From assembly GCF_016909575.1 (NCBI RefSeq), contig NZ_JAFBGA010000017.1:1-64000 (forward strand): 64,000 bases of DNA, given 5' to 3'. Below are positions 20,428-24,679 of the stretch, one piece after another (the first letter of the stretch is position 1; every line of letters starts with the position of its first letter). This stretch comes from Streptomyces sp. HB132. Lineage in GTDB: Bacteria > Actinomycetota > Actinomycetes > Streptomycetales > Streptomycetaceae. Made by a program: the position numbers and the translations under genes. A model generated the notes under the pieces. That model made no database searches and had not been told where the DNA came from. It worked only from the letters and a program-made list of their open reading frames with translations.

Positions 20428-21459
20428 ATGCACGCGTCTCAGGCGAGAAGCGCCGGTCTGGGCCTGGCCCTTGGCTCGGCCTTCGCATTCGGTGGTTCAG
20501 GGGTCGCGGCCAAGCCGCTGATCGAGGCGGGGCTCGACCCGCTGCACGTCGTGTGGCTGAGGGTGGCCGGCGCCGCCCTCGTCATGCTGCCGGTCGCCTG
20601 GCGGCACCGGCATCTCGTGCGGGAGCGGCCCGTTCTGCTGGCCGGCTTCGGTCTGTTCGCCGTGGCCGGCGTACAGGCCTTCTACTTCGCCTCGCTCTCG
20701 CGCATCCCGGTCGGCGTCGCACTCCTCATCGAGTACCTGGCACCCGCGCTCGTCCTCGGCTGGGTGCGCTTCGTGCAGCGACGGCCCGTCACCCGCGCCG
20801 CCGCGGCCGGTGTGGTGCTGGCGGTCGGCGGACTCGCCTGCGTCGTGGAGGTGTGGGCCGGTCTCGGCTTCGACGCGATCGGGCTGCTGCTCGCACTCGG
20901 CGCAGCGTGCTGCCAGGTGGGCTACTTCGTCCTGTCGGACCAGGGCGCCGGCCACGGGGACACGGCGGACACCGACCCCCCGCACCCCGTGGGTGTGATC
21001 GCGTACGGACTGCTCGTCGGCACGGTCGTGCTCACGGTGGTGGCCCGGCCCTGGGGCATGGACTGGTCCGTACTCGGCGGCAGCGCGGACATGGGCGGGC
21101 ACGGCGTCCCGGCGTGGCTGCTGCTCGGCTGGATCGTGCTGCTCGCGACCGTGCTCGCCTACGTCACCGGTGTCGTGTCGGTACGGCTGCTCTCGCCCCA
21201 GGTGGCGGGCGTCGTCGCCTGCCTCGAGGCGGTCATCGCGACCGTGCTCGCATGGGTCCTGCTCGGTGAACACCTCTCCGCGCCGCAGCTCGTGGGCGGC
21301 GGAGTGGTGCTGATCGGCGCCTTCATCGCGCAGTCGTCCGCGCCCAGACCGCCGTCGGGTCCGGTGGCATCGGGTCCGGGTGCGACGGCCGCGGTGGCGG
21401 CCCCGGCGCACGCGACCGCTGTCGGGAGCGAGTTGTCCCGGCCTCAGCCCCCGTCGTAG
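20428..21459 (+). CDS. EamA/DMT family transporter (first of two)
   Basis: The 343-residue inner-membrane protein has about ten helices arranged as two EamA repeats (residues about 8-140 and 170-300), as in RhtA-like metabolite exporters. The N-terminal repeat begins GLALGSAFAFGGSGVAAKPLIEAGLDPLHVVWLR, and a Pro/Ala-rich cytoplasmic tail ends the protein. Its substrate is unknown. The ATG at 20428 has no ribosome site but sits just after a -10-like box, which fits a leaderless transcript. A second EamA gene follows 156 bases downstream. Confidence 0.87.
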   Translation: MHASQARSAGLGLALGSAFAFGGSGVAAKPLIEAGLDPLHVVWLRVAGAALVMLPVAWRHRHLVRERPVLLAGFGLFAVAGVQAFYFASLSRIPVGVALLIEYLAPALVLGWVRFVQRRPVTRAAAAGVVLAVGGLACVVEVWAGLGFDAIGLLLALGAACCQVGYFVLSDQGAGHGDTADTDPPHPVGVIAYGLLVGTVVLTVVARPWGMDWSVLGGSADMGGHGVPAWLLLGWIVLLATVLAYVTGVVSVRLLSPQVAGVVACLEAVIATVLAWVLLGEHLSAPQLVGGGVVLIGAFIAQSSAPRPPSGPVASGPGATAAVAAPAHATAVGSELSRPQPPS

Positions 21460-21462
21460 GGT
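21433..21462 (+). promoter_or_regulatory. Promoter for the second EamA transcript
   Basis: TTGTCC (21433-21438), an 18-base spacer and TAGGGT (21457-21462) form a good Streptomyces promoter inside the end of the first EamA gene. The expected start point is near 21468-21470, at the ATG of an 11-codon open frame. Confidence 0.6.
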
Positions 21463-21469
21463 GTCGGCC

Positions 21470-21505
21470 ATGCCGCAGACCGTACTGCCGCCTCCTGTCG
21501 CCTAG
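21470..21505 (+). CDS. Putative leaderless 11-residue leader peptide ([11 protein letters not shown])
   Basis: The 11-codon open frame begins with ATG seven bases after a -10 box, so the mRNA would start at the start codon itself. It encodes three consecutive prolines, a sequence known to slow ribosomes, and ends with TAG. Two GC-rich hairpins and the second EamA gene follow. Position and shape fit a translated leader that controls the exporter by attenuation, but no comparative evidence is available here. Confidence 0.45.
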
Positions 21506-21535
21506 CGCGAGGCGGCCACTCCGGACTAAGGCCGG

Positions 21536-21586
21536 GCTCGGGTACGCCCCGAGCGGTTCGTCGCTGCCCGCGCGGAGCCGAGCGAC
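21536..21586 (+). promoter_or_regulatory. Two leader hairpins upstream of the second EamA gene
   Basis: GCTCGGG/CCCGAGC (21536-21554, five-base loop) is followed by GTCGCT/AGCGAC (about 21560-21586). They separate the leader peptide from the EamA start and could form an attenuator. There is no U-tract. Confidence 0.4.
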
Positions 21587-21615
21587 CGACCACCCCCCTT
21601 CTTCCGGAGAGTCAC

Positions 21616-22572
21616 GTGTCCCACCCTGTCGCCGGTCCGCCCGTCGGGCGGAGCCTGGTTTATCTCGTCGTAGCCGGCATTGCCTGGGGTACGGCGGGGG
21701 CTGCCGCATCCCTGCTGTTCCGGATCAGCGATCTCGGGCCTCTGGCCCTGTCGTTCTGGCGCTGTGCCGGCGGACTCGTCCTGCTGGCAGGTGCGCTGGC
21801 GCTGCGTCCCGGCCGCCCGCGCACCTCCGACGAGCCACGTCGCAGGCGGCTGCTGCGCATCCTGGGGACGGGCATCGGTCTCACCGTCTTCCAGAGCGCG
21901 TACTTCGCGGCGGTCGAGGCGACCGGGCTCGCCGTGGGGACCGTGGTCACGCTGGGCGCGGGGCCCGTCCTCATCGCGGTCGGCGCGCGGTTGACCATGG
22001 GGGAGCGGCTCGGTGGGGGCGGTCTCGCCGCGGTGGCCGGAGCGCTCGCCGGTCTCGCCGTGCTGGTGCTCGGTGGCGAATCAGCCGAAGTCCGGCCCGT
22101 GGGGCTGCTGCTGGCCGTTCTGTCCGCCGCGGGCTACGCGGCGATCACGCTGCTGACCCGGTATCTCGGCAGGGACGGCGAGGCGGGCGACCCCCTTGCC
22201 ACCAGCGCGTGGGCCTTCGGCATCGGAGCCGTGGGGCTGCTGCCCATGGCGGCTGCCGAGGGCCTCGTGCCGCACACCGCCGAGACGGGGCACGTGCTAC
22301 TGCTGCTCGTCTACGTGGCGGCGGTGCCGACCGCACTCGCGTACGCGCTCTACTTCGCGGGTGCCGCGGCCGTCCGCTCGGCGACCGTATCCGTGATCAT
22401 GCTGCTCGAGCCGGTGAGCGCCGCGGTCATCGCGGTGACCGTGCTGCGGGAACGGCTCACCGCGGCCACGGTCGTCGGCACGCTGATCCTGCTCACCGCC
22501 GTGGCGGGACTGGCCCTCGCCGAGACGCGCGGTGCCGCCGCGGCCCGCCGCCGGGCAGCCGTGGGGGCCTGA
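21616..22572 (+). CDS. EamA/DMT family transporter (second of two)
   Basis: The 318-residue protein has ten predicted helices in two EamA repeats, beginning [36 protein letters not shown]. It should export a small metabolite or amino acid. The start is GTG at 21616 with CCGGAGAG upstream. About 155 bases of leader carry a short peptide and hairpins, suggesting regulated expression. It is only distantly similar to the EamA protein just upstream, so it does not look like a very recent duplicate. It is convergent with the FMN-binding protein gene. Confidence 0.88.
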
Positions 22573-22586
22573 CCCGCCCCGCCCCG

Positions 22587-23312
22587 TCACCCTGCGGGAG
22601 ACAGGCCGCTGTCGGGCCTCGGCGCGGTGAGGTAGTCCGGCACTCGGACGGCGGGGTCCAGGTCGCCGGAGGGCACCGGCGCCGCGTATGCCGGGGCCAC
22701 CGGGACCACGCCCGCCCAGTGCGGCAGGGAGAGGTCCTCCGGCTCGTCGTTCGGTCCACCCGTGCGGATCTTGGCGGAGACCTGGTCGAGGTCGAGGCGG
22801 ATCACCGCGGTCGCGGCGAGTTCCTTCGCGTCCGCCGGACGCGAGTCCTTCGACCTGCCCGGCACCACCTGGTCGACGATGGCGTCGAGCGCGATGCGCC
22901 GCTCCTCCGGGTCCGTCACCGTACGGGCGGTTCCGTGGACCACCACGGAGCGGTAGTTCATCGAGTGGTGGAAAGCGGAACGGGCCAGTACGAGGCCGTC
23001 CACGTGCGTCACGGTCAGGCAGACGGCGAGGCCGGGATCGGCCGCGCCCGTCGCGCGCAGAGGGCGCGATCCCGTCGAGCCGTGGACGTACAGCCGCTCG
23101 CCCACCCGGCCGAAGAGCGTCGGGAGGACGACGGGCGCGCCGTCGCGGACGAAGCCCAGGTGGCAGAGGTACGCCTCGTCGAGTATCGCGTGGACCGTCT
23201 CCCTGTCGTACGAGGCGCGTTCCCTGGCGCGGGTCGGGACCGTGCGTTCCGTCGCCTCGTAGGCCGTGGCCCCGGGGCGGCCGGTGCTGTCGGGCGTAAC
23301 GGTGTCCGGCAT
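22587..23312 (-). CDS. Pyridoxamine 5'-phosphate oxidase-fold (FMN-binding) protein
   Basis: The 241-residue split-barrel flavoprotein has typical segments: YLCHLGFVRDGAPVVLPTLFGRVGERLYVHGSTGS, DGLVLARSAFHHSMNYRSVVVHG and the C-terminal substrate region GGPNDEPEDLSLPHWAGVVP. The ATG at 23312 is preferred over the one at 23324 because GGAG then lies at the right distance. It is divergent from a MocR regulator with a palindrome in the shared promoter, so the MocR protein probably controls it. The pairing suggests vitamin B6 or related cofactor chemistry, but the substrate is unproven. Confidence 0.85.
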   Translation of the reverse strand: MPDTVTPDSTGRPGATAYEATERTVPTRARERASYDRETVHAILDEAYLCHLGFVRDGAPVVLPTLFGRVGERLYVHGSTGSRPLRATGAADPGLAVCLTVTHVDGLVLARSAFHHSMNYRSVVVHGTARTVTDPEERRIALDAIVDQVVPGRSKDSRPADAKELAATAVIRLDLDQVSAKIRTGGPNDEPEDLSLPHWAGVVPVAPAYAAPVPSGDLDPAVRVPDYLTAPRPDSGLSPAG

Positions 23313-23340
23313 TGCGTACTCCATTGCACTAGTGCATACT
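23312..23340. promoter_or_regulatory. Shared promoter/operator of the PPOX and MocR genes
   Basis: For the forward gene, TTGCGT (23312-23317), 17 bases and CATACT (23335-23340) place the start near the GTG at 23348. A perfect 12-bp palindrome TGCACTAGTGCA (23325-23336) lies in the spacer and just upstream of the divergent gene. It is a good candidate MocR binding site controlling both directions. Confidence 0.6.
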
Positions 23341-23347
23341 GTCGTTT

Positions 23348-24679
23348 GTGCTAGGAGAGTATCGGATCAGTGGGCGACGCGCATCCGAAATCGCCGCGAG
23401 TGTGGAGTGCGGTGTATCCGCAGGTGACCTCGAGCCCGGTCATGTGTTGCCTCCCATGAGGGAGTTGGCGACTCTGCTCGGTGTCAACGCGAACACGGTC
23501 GCCGCCGCGTACCGGACGCTGCGCGAACGTGGAGTGATCGAGACGGCGGGGCGGCGGGGGAGTCGGGTGAGGCCGCGGCCCGCGACCACGGCGCGTGGAT
23601 CGCTTCGCGTGGAGGCCCCGCCGGGGGTGCGCGACCTCGGTGACGGCAATCCCGACCCCGCTCTCCTGCCCTCGCTCGGACCGGCGCTGGCTGTCGCCTC
23701 GGACGCGTACGCCCGTCGGCCCGGCATGTACGGCGACGACCCGGTGGTTCCGCGACTGGCCGAACTGGTGCGGGCCGGTCTGGACTCAGACGGCCTTCCG
23801 GCGGGGCCGGTGGCACTCGCGTCGGGGTCGCTCGACGCGATCGAACGGGTGCTGTCGGCGCATCTCAGGCCCGGTGACGCCGTCGCGGTGGAGGACCCGG
23901 GGTGGGGTGCCCTGCTGGACCTGATCCCCGCGCTCGGCATGCACGTCGTCCCGGTGGCCCTGGACGACGAGGGTCCGCTGCCGGGGGATGTGGAGGGTGC
24001 GCTGCGGGCGGGAGCCAAGGCTCTGGTGGTCACCGACCGGGCGCAGAATCCGACCGGTGCCGCCGTGGGGCGTCTGCGGGCGGACGAGTTGCGGTCCGTC
24101 CTCGCCGAGCACCCCGGCGTGCTCCTGATCGAGGACGATCACGGCCACGCGATCGTCGACCTGCCGGTCCATCCCCTCGCCGGCGTCACGGAACGCTGGG
24201 CGTTCGTCCGGTCCGTCTCCAAGGCGTACGGCCCCGATCTGCGGCTCGCCGTGCTCACCGGGGACGCGCTGACCGTCGACCGGGTGACGGGCCGTCAACA
24301 CCTCGGGCCCGGCTGGGTCAGCGCGCTGCTGCAGCGGACCGTGGCACACCTGTGGGCGACGGATGCCGTGGACACGGCGGCGGTCGCCCGCTCGTACGGG
24401 CGTCGCCGTGACGCACTGGTGGGGGCGCTGGGGGAGCGGGGGATCGCGGCGTACGGGCGGACCGGGATGAACGTCTGGGTGCCGGTGAGTGACGAGACCG
24501 GGGCCGTCGCCAGGATGCTGCACTCGGGTTGGGCGGTGGCCCCGGGGGCGCGGTTCCGGCTCACCTCGCCGCAGGGGATGCGTCTGACCGTCTCGTCGCT
24601 GTGTGCCGCCGACATCGAACCCCTCGCGGACGCCGTCGCGGCAGCGGCGCGCCCCGCCCGGCCGGTCGGGCACGGCTGA
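23348..24679 (+). CDS. MocR/PdxR-type regulator (GntR helix-turn-helix fused to aminotransferase domain)
   Basis: The 443-residue protein joins a GntR winged helix (about residues 8-78, LPPMRELATLLGVNANTVAAAYRTLRERGVIETAGRRGSRV) to a fold-type I aminotransferase domain. The PLP Lys is near residue 292 in RSVSKAYGPDLRLAV. MocR proteins sense PLP or an amino compound and control B6 or amino-acid genes. The GTG at 23348 has no ribosome site and sits seven bases after a -10 box, so a leaderless mRNA is likely. The divergent neighbour is a pyridoxamine-oxidase-fold protein. Confidence 0.9.
   Translation: MLGEYRISGRRASEIAASVECGVSAGDLEPGHVLPPMRELATLLGVNANTVAAAYRTLRERGVIETAGRRGSRVRPRPATTARGSLRVEAPPGVRDLGDGNPDPALLPSLGPALAVASDAYARRPGMYGDDPVVPRLAELVRAGLDSDGLPAGPVALASGSLDAIERVLSAHLRPGDAVAVEDPGWGALLDLIPALGMHVVPVALDDEGPLPGDVEGALRAGAKALVVTDRAQNPTGAAVGRLRADELRSVLAEHPGVLLIEDDHGHAIVDLPVHPLAGVTERWAFVRSVSKAYGPDLRLAVLTGDALTVDRVTGRQHLGPGWVSALLQRTVAHLWATDAVDTAAVARSYGRRRDALVGALGERGIAAYGRTGMNVWVPVSDETGAVARMLHSGWAVAPGARFRLTSPQGMRLTVSSLCAADIEPLADAVAAAARPARPVGHG

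Follow-up and report, generated by a model that had tools for sequence, protein, structure and literature searches.

Given that a gene for an EamA-family exporter in Streptomyces sp. HB132 is preceded by a promoter and a very short, proline-rich open reading frame (ORF), does translation of that frame control the exporter and, if so, by what route? We analysed positions 21433-21615 of a 64,000-nucleotide (nt) stretch of this genome (contig NZ_JAFBGA010000017.1, positions 1 to 64,000; hereafter the window, with the parts of the leader region and both EamA genes on its plus strand). A first-pass annotation, made from the sequence alone, had placed here a promoter, an ATG frame with a Pro-Pro-Pro run that would be translated without a 5' leader, two hairpins and the exporter gene, all of which are present as it described them. 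We conclude that 21433-21615 is probably a cis-acting, ribosome-stalling leader-peptide attenuator of the exporter gene. A leaderless Pro-Pro-Pro leader controlling the exporter is by far the best reading of the locus, for relatives conserve the peptide, the spacing of the promoter and the geometry that links the stop codon to the downstream RNA, and it is on conservation that the case for the leader rests.

Conservation of the promoter and leader peptide

The promoter (21433-21462) is composed of a -35 element, TTGTCC (21433-21438), an 18-nt spacer and a -10 element, TAGGGT (21457-21462). Seven nt separate TAGGGT from the ATG at 21470, which opens a predicted leaderless ORF of 11 codons (21470-21505) closed by a TAG stop at 21503-21505. 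We compared this arrangement across 50 representatives less than 80% alike, taken from 233 of 251 loci, many of them from the same genome; the 80% cut is the only handling of shared ancestry in our counts. The frame filter required a -10-like hexamer (T-A/T-nnn-T) and an in-frame Pro-Pro, which are therefore conserved by construction, and entry to the representative set also required a motif resembling segment 2 (described below) and a GGAG before the gene. Exporter starts were called by script, at least one of them (L242) too far downstream, and a few of the 50 have the end of the untranslated region wrongly placed.

Among these representatives, the gap between the -10 hexamer and the start codon is 7 nt in 38, 6 nt in 10 and 8 nt in 2. 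TAGGGT is the commonest -10 hexamer of these divergent relatives (19/50), and a TTG, which the filter did not select for, stands exactly 18 nt upstream of the -10 in 30/50. A sigma-70 scan built on the TTGACA/TATAAT consensus called no promoter. The promoter-to-ATG spacing suggests that the messenger RNA (mRNA) starts at or next to the leader ATG and, hence, that the ORF is leaderless. Comparison across loci shows the promoter and the short ORF to be conserved together, with the promoter spacing kept in relatives.

We rejected a chance ORF on counts in shuffled DNA. The window contains a single frame of this type, defined by TAnnnT, 6-8 nt, ATG, no more than 16 codons and PPP, and 20 first-order Markov shuffles of the 64-kb sequence together gave one (0.05 per shuffle). 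The first-pass annotation had suggested looking for the peptide upstream of EamA genes in other Streptomyces. A search of 100 genomes with the exporter protein returned 47 with an orthologue at E<=1e-60, all from its own genus, and the leader is present in 47/47: at 29 of 30 loci by the first filter, at L037 with a GTG start, and at 17 more by a looser filter, applied to these later loci and to other genera, that accepts any short Pro-Pro frame after a -10-like hexamer. A second collection, some of whose species may be common to the first, yielded an intact leader frame at 78 of 80 loci (the best 80 of 158 relatives). A class-wide search of 246 genomes gave 27 orthologues at E<=1e-50, of which 8 belong to other genera in two other families, according to the labels supplied by the tool. 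All 8 (48-63% identity) are preceded by the leader, in the forms MSSTVLSPPAA (twice), MSVTVLSPPAV, MNAMALSPPVA, MTFTALAPPAA, MTPFIVSPPPAR, MTPFTVSPPPAR and MTLIVSPPPAR. A search of the phylum with one of the other-genus exporters added no further genus (7/346 genomes, all of its own genus). The frame is thus kept across Streptomyces and in other genera, and the lack of conservation that the first-pass annotation had named as telling against its proposal is not what these searches found. Twenty-nine loci (L003-L031) had been fetched by leader DNA; they are no evidence for the tie between leader and exporter, and they are included in the alignments and statistics.

The 2/80 loci with a decayed frame carry natural variants of the leader. 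At L085 the leader ATG is changed to AGG; at L116 the stop is changed to CAG, giving readthrough of an intact M-D-T-H-W-L-L-L-P-P-P-A-V. These variants are either natural tests or sequencing errors.

We also built a covariance model from 41 leaders. At E<=0.01 it matches 87/121 genomes of the genus, once in each. Sixty-one genomes of the genus had also been searched by protein; 46 of the 47 with the exporter match, 45 of them beside the exporter gene (leaders from some of these genomes had gone into the model), as against 0/14 without it. The match in genome G025 is on another contig, ahead of a truncated paralogue, and in G036 the leader is present and was missed by the model. An order-wide draw of 119 genomes, mostly of the same genus, gave a sole other-genus match that is weak (E 0.04) and chance-like. 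We likewise set aside as chance-like the weak matches L211, L212 and L213, which have no Pro-Pro leader frame. The match at L214 (genome G479) is partial (model positions 26-119) and has a CTT-Pro-Pro-Pro-Ala-Ala-stop end with an EamA-like start behind it; no start codon for this leader was identified.

A second, paralogous EamA clade has leaders with four prolines, namely MQTFLTPPPPAV, MQLCLTPPPPAA, MQLFLTPPPPAS and, in L216, MHQMLTPPPPVL. These loci are L209/L251 (genome G360), L215 and L208 (G025) and L216 (G113), and in most of them a GCGGGC-like block follows the stop. The leaders at L208 and L209 are second leaders that stand ahead of the paralogous EamA gene, and G360, which came from the order-wide draw, gives two good matches to the covariance model. 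The gene behind L208 is truncated, and its leader, MQLCLTPPPPAA, has no TAnnnT -10 hexamer; at L225, a truncated paralogue in the same place as L208, the leader filter found nothing.

What is conserved in the leader is its end. In the 50 representatives the residue three before the last Pro-Pro is Val in 44, the residue two before is Leu in 44, and the residue after the pair is Ala in 44. Positions 1 and 2 of the Val and Leu codons are nearly fixed, whereas position 3 is mixed (Val: T19 G16 C9 A6; Leu: T30 C11 G9). Because positions 1 and 2 are kept while position 3 varies, this comparison shows the leader ORF to be under peptide-level selection for Val-Leu-x-Pro-Pro-Ala, and a need to keep RNA pairing would not by itself produce the codon pattern. 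The choice of Pro codons is also free, Pro-Pro itself being required by the filter. The longest Pro run is three in 41, two in 6 and four in 3 (the filter required at least 2). The leaders start with ATG in 45 and GTG in 5, stop with TAG in 24, TGA in 20 and TAA in 6, and are 33-45 nt long, varying by whole codons under a search pattern that required an open frame.

These data bear on two accounts that would do without a translated cis-acting leader. The strong nucleotide conservation and the inverted repeats of the region might suggest a conserved operator or structured RNA in which the reading frame is incidental, but the freedom of the third position over fixed first and second positions through Val-Leu-Pro, the interchange of stops, the passage from ATG to GTG starts and the whole-codon changes of length leave that account very improbable. 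A small protein of 11 residues working in trans would equally account for a conserved peptide, yet we give this account scarcely any credence: conservation is confined to the last 6-7 residues, behind an N-terminus of variable sequence and length, the leader codons can pair with the RNA next to them (segment 1 with segment 2), and the leader stays beside the exporter gene.

A third account concerns what the prolines report. The first-pass annotation had listed proline supply among the possible signals, and a run of Pro codons by the stop is what a classical amino-acid attenuator would use to report charged tRNA-Pro, with the exporter answering proline supply; a proline-responsive leader, mgtL, is known (PMC6460261). 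This trigger fares poorly at our locus. Several lineages retain only two prolines (LSPP, LAPP), the Pro codons are freely chosen, no proline genes are found among the six neighbouring proteins scanned, and induction of an exporter on proline shortage would be physiologically odd. We consider a proline-supply attenuator improbable and rejected it on the short Pro runs, the free codon choice and the odd physiology.

Codon usage around the prolines is unusual in its own right. The rare Leu codon CTT precedes PPP in 82/115 leaders, as against 1.6% of the Leu codons in 117 exporter genes; the window's own Leu codon at this place (21485-21487) is CTG. CCT is over-used at the second Pro (48/115) and the third Pro (41/115), as against 6.6%.

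Complementary RNA segments and the predicted switch

How might a ribosome on these codons affect the exporter gene? The last Pro-Pro pair of the window begins at 21491, 15 nt before the end of the stop codon, and this distance is exactly 15 nt in 46/50 representatives. By the reach of the ribosome in toeprinting, about 15 nt fits a ribosome with the first Pro of the pair in its P site. A ribosome stalled there would cover segment 1 (21488-21502, the codons for Pro-Pro-Pro-Val-Ala) and leave segment 2 free. Segment 2 (CGCGAGGCGGC, 21506-21516), a GC-rich block, abuts the leader stop, and it starts 0-3 nt after the stop in 49/50 representatives, with CGCGGGCGGC, GGCGGGC and CGCGCGCGGC as variants. 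As aligned sequences show, segment 2 is complementary both to segment 1 and to segment 3 (GCTGCCCGCG, 21563-21572), which in the window follows after a gap of 46 nt. Segment 3 is almost invariant; its core, GCTGCCCGC, occurs without a mismatch in 100 of 117 unique leader regions (3 of 120 were dropped because no start codon had been called).

Between segments 2 and 3 lie an anti-Shine-Dalgarno (anti-SD) stretch, CTCCGGA (21519-21525), and a predicted hairpin, H2 (GCTCGGG/CCCGAGC, 21536-21554), one pair of which changes from CG to UA in 16/41 sequences. Segment 3 is held in a second predicted hairpin, H3 (GGTTCGTCGCT...AGCGACC, 21555-21587). The anti-SD is complementary to segment 4, the Shine-Dalgarno (SD) region TCCGGAG of the exporter gene (21603-21609, with GGAG at 21606-21609), and this pairing appears in the minimum free energy fold and in the swap test described below.

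These elements suggest the following switch. A ribosome would start at the 5'-terminal ATG and slow at x-Pro-Pro. Once the P site was occupied by the first Pro of the final pair, the leading edge of the ribosome would be at the stop codon, so that segment 1 would be hidden and segment 2 free. Segment 2 could then capture segment 3 during transcription, and the 2:3 helix would block the fold that sequesters the SD, which is anti-SD:SD for the window's group and segment 3:SD for the group of VLPPPAA leaders, allowing the exporter to be made. In the absence of a stall the ribosome would terminate, 1:2 would re-form and the exporter SD would stay closed. The output of the attenuator is most likely translational. 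As the trigger we consider prolonged Pro-Pro stalling, through limitation of elongation factor P (EF-P) or an inhibitor that the pump may export, most likely, ahead of proline shortage.

We folded the leader regions in two groups obtained from the 117 after removal of near-duplicates: group 1, which resembles the window (n=52), and group 2, mostly VLPPPAA leaders with GGCGGGC (n=23). Alignments comprised 41/52 sequences of group 1 (A1), 18/23 of group 2 (A2) and 41/72 for the covariance model (A3); folds for SD opening covered 115 of the 117 regions, and folds with 2:3 forced covered 49 of the 50 representatives. Segments 1 and 2 pair in the free full-length RNA of 46/52 group-1 and 11/23 group-2 sequences. 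In partial transcripts, in which the SD has not yet been made, masking of the leader gives 2:3 in 51/52 and 18/23, respectively, and 2:3 forms in the partial transcript of the window (0.87). In free group-1 RNA the SD is paired by the anti-SD in 30/52. In group 2 it is paired by segment 3 in 11/23 free RNAs and in 19/23 with segment 2 covered, and segment 3:SD is found in 3/23 with a ribosome on the Pro codons. Segment 3:SD was rejected as a general mode of sequestration: it fits the VLPPPAA group and occurs in 0/52 free RNAs of the window's group. From these models, the two lineages seem to close the SD differently around the same leader.

Conservation of the pairings was assessed by swapping partners between loci. 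Across the 50 representatives anti-SD:SD beats all 500 swaps (z -4.7), and it has been remade with other letters, as ATCTCTCC:GGAGAGAT in L247 and CCGCAGGGGA:TCCCCTTGCGG in L246. An earlier swap test on 80-111 less diverse pairs gave z -7.2 for anti-SD:SD and z -4.2 for 2:3. When a control is made by sliding the alignment by three columns, 66% of its cells pair, as against 89.5% for 2:3. The alignment has no compensatory change in the 2:3 helix because its letters hardly vary.

That lack of compensatory change is one of several results that weigh against the switch as drawn. In the swap test on representatives, 2:3 (z -2.1) and 1:2 (z -0.9) are both weak, with controls ranging from z -3.2 to +2.5, and one control of the earlier test reached z +6.7; of the swapped pairs only anti-SD:SD stands out, and modestly so. 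The covariation score of the slid control (0.121) is similar to that of 2:3 (0.112). The SD is predicted to open only slightly on stalling: its mean unpaired probability over the 115 sequences rises from 0.11 free to 0.19 stalled, with gains above 0.1 in 42/115 and losses in 6, and a mask extended to +13, over segment 2 as well, gives 0.22 although it would be expected to close the SD. With the leader masked in full-length RNA, 2:3 is dominant in only 27/52 and 13/23, and the SD of 23/52 group-1 sequences remains paired to the anti-SD, as against 30/52 free; group-1 partial transcripts form 2:3 in 31/52 even without a stall. Forcing 2:3 opens the SD fully in 1/49 representatives; relative to the best fold, the SD is more open in 14/49 and less open in 4/49. 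In the window with its leader masked, the closed fold is favoured over the fold with 2:3 by 10.5 kcal/mol. Because the closed fold wins energetically, the device would need 2:3 to be kinetically trapped during transcription, and on paper works only then. The fold of 21433-21615 by itself is not exceptional (z -1.75, matched by 13/200 shuffles). Sequestration of the SD is supported by the swap test and by the helices remade with other letters; its release by a stall is weakly predicted by the folds, least of all in the window.

The weakness of the predicted SD opening raises the possibility that the same stalling leader has a transcriptional output, through early termination that is Rho-dependent or caused by a hairpin. 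There is precedent for this in the poly-Pro leaders mgtL and mgtP, which act on transcription elongation (PMC6460261), and in several antibiotic-responsive upstream ORFs (uORFs) of Streptomyces and others (PMC12421871). Against it, no intrinsic-terminator-like site occurs in 20800-22000. We rejected an intrinsic-terminator reading of the hairpins, and of H3 in particular because no T-run follows it; the sequence there is C/A-rich. Moreover, anti-SD:SD persists from lineage to lineage although its letters change, and a switch that worked by transcription alone would have no need of this. We regard a transcriptional output as unlikely, albeit the most credible of the rival explanations, and retain translational attenuation as the preferred reading.

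The exporter locus and known leader systems

The presumed regulated gene (21616-22572) has a GTG start and encodes an EamA exporter of the DMT superfamily with 318 residues. The protein matches Pfam EamA (E 7.8e-30), and the amino-acid exporter models of NCBIfam match it only far below cut-off. Its closest named orthologue among the best 80 of 158 relatives is from Streptomyces mutomycini (96% identity). The window has two EamA genes in tandem (20428-22572): the upstream neighbour (20428-21459) lies outside the switch, and its stop codon overlaps the -10 element of the leader promoter. An upstream EamA gene was matched before the leader in 78/78 loci with a called leader, from the same best 80 of 158. 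The neighbourhood is otherwise stable as well, with a PPOX-type oxidase at 77/80 loci and a MocR regulator at 75/80. In the window the convergent oxidase gene and the regulator gene occupy 22587-24679, the regulator being of the MocR/GntR-aminotransferase type and resembling PtsJ below cut-off. The oxidase and MocR neighbours make a vitamin B6-type link possible. A search of 21000-22000 against Rfam gave no match at gathering score and one sub-threshold microRNA match that lies off the leader; membership of the leader in an Rfam family was rejected for lack of a match at gathering score.

We were interested in how this leader relates to known attenuators. The erm and cat translational attenuators combine a leader peptide, a 1:2, 2:3, 3:4 pairing logic and a sequestered SD. 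Our locus resembles them in having a conserved short leader ORF before the presumed regulated gene and, by prediction, in the pairing logic and the sequestered SD, and differs in its predicted leaderless start, its Pro-Pro motif and its exporter target. Canestrari et al. in 2020 are said to have described leaderless poly-cysteine short ORFs of mycobacteria that attenuate cysteine-responsive operons. Like the ORF described here they are actinobacterial and have a run of a single amino acid, and they are leaderless and attenuate the downstream gene, as is predicted here; their run is of Cys and their targets are cysteine-responsive operons, whereas here a Pro run precedes an exporter.

Other relatives are found in the literature. 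The Salmonella leaders mgtL and mgtP contain proline codons and exert EF-P-sensitive control over mgtA and mgtCBR; a stall at Pro alters how the RNA folds and increases the mRNA downstream (PMC6460261). They share with our locus a short Pro-codon leader ORF before the gene of a membrane transporter. However, we noticed no sequence similarity; mgtL occupies nt 71-124 within a leader of 264 nt (PMC6460261), whereas the ORF described here is at the predicted 5' end, has its Pro run at the C-terminus, shows no terminator and precedes an EamA gene instead of that of a Mg2+ transporter. The RAPP-type arrest peptides ApcA, ApdA and ApdP are secretory or membrane proteins encoded before secA, secDF, yidC and other genes (PMC10987492, PMC12992588), and seven such peptides are reported in Streptomyces lividans (PMC12992588). 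Their site of arrest, x-Pro-Pro close to the C-terminal end of an upstream ORF, matches the stall proposed here; they occur in actinobacteria as well as elsewhere, and the related SecM frees a sequestered SD, as our leader may do. The RAPP motif, however, is R/H/Q-A/G-P-P, whereas here Leu/Val is followed by Pro/Ser/Ala and then Pro-Pro, and our leader of 10-14 residues has no such Arg and no room for a signal sequence. The CutF uORF, also poly-proline, regulates the multicopper oxidase gene cutO (PMC10987492), and thus has an oxidase gene as its target where ours has an exporter. The uORFs of Streptomyces ABCF genes share the genus and a resistance-type gene with our locus and act by ribosome-mediated attenuation, as is proposed here, but have a ribosome binding site, encode other peptides (MLV, MVGDDDISG), are predicted to attenuate transcription and precede ABCF, not EamA (PMC12421871). 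Finally, an earlier actinobacterial leader-peptide survey covers trp, leu, ilv and cys genes, and its text does not contain the words proline, transporter or permease (PMC1262725).

The first-pass annotation had stated that it knew of no described leader of this type. Poly-Pro, RAPP and leaderless poly-Cys leaders are known, and in that respect the statement went too far; before EamA genes no such leader family was found in the open-access literature searched, where we met relatives in mechanism only. The EamA-leader family differs from each known relative in peptide, position or target gene.

We also entertain a broader idea, which we consider doubtful: that actinomycetes sense difficulty in forming the Pro-Pro bond through a leaderless x-Pro-Pro-Ala-Ala-stop peptide and thereby switch on a pump that removes the offending compound. 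The inputs of such a sensor might be a shortage of EF-P, a proline analogue carried on tRNA-Pro or a natural inhibitor of the peptidyl-transferase centre, and the TPPPPA leader before the second EamA clade would serve in the same way for another compound.

Most of the Streptomyces genomes sampled keep the leader, as do genera of two other families, and there is usually one copy in a genome. The leader would extend the known attenuator leaders by a leaderless type based on poly-Pro and offers a natural reporter of Pro-Pro stalling in the actinomycetes, which make many ribosomal antibiotics. For an unstudied transporter family it provides a regulatory handle, and whatever triggers the pause should reveal the compound that is exported.

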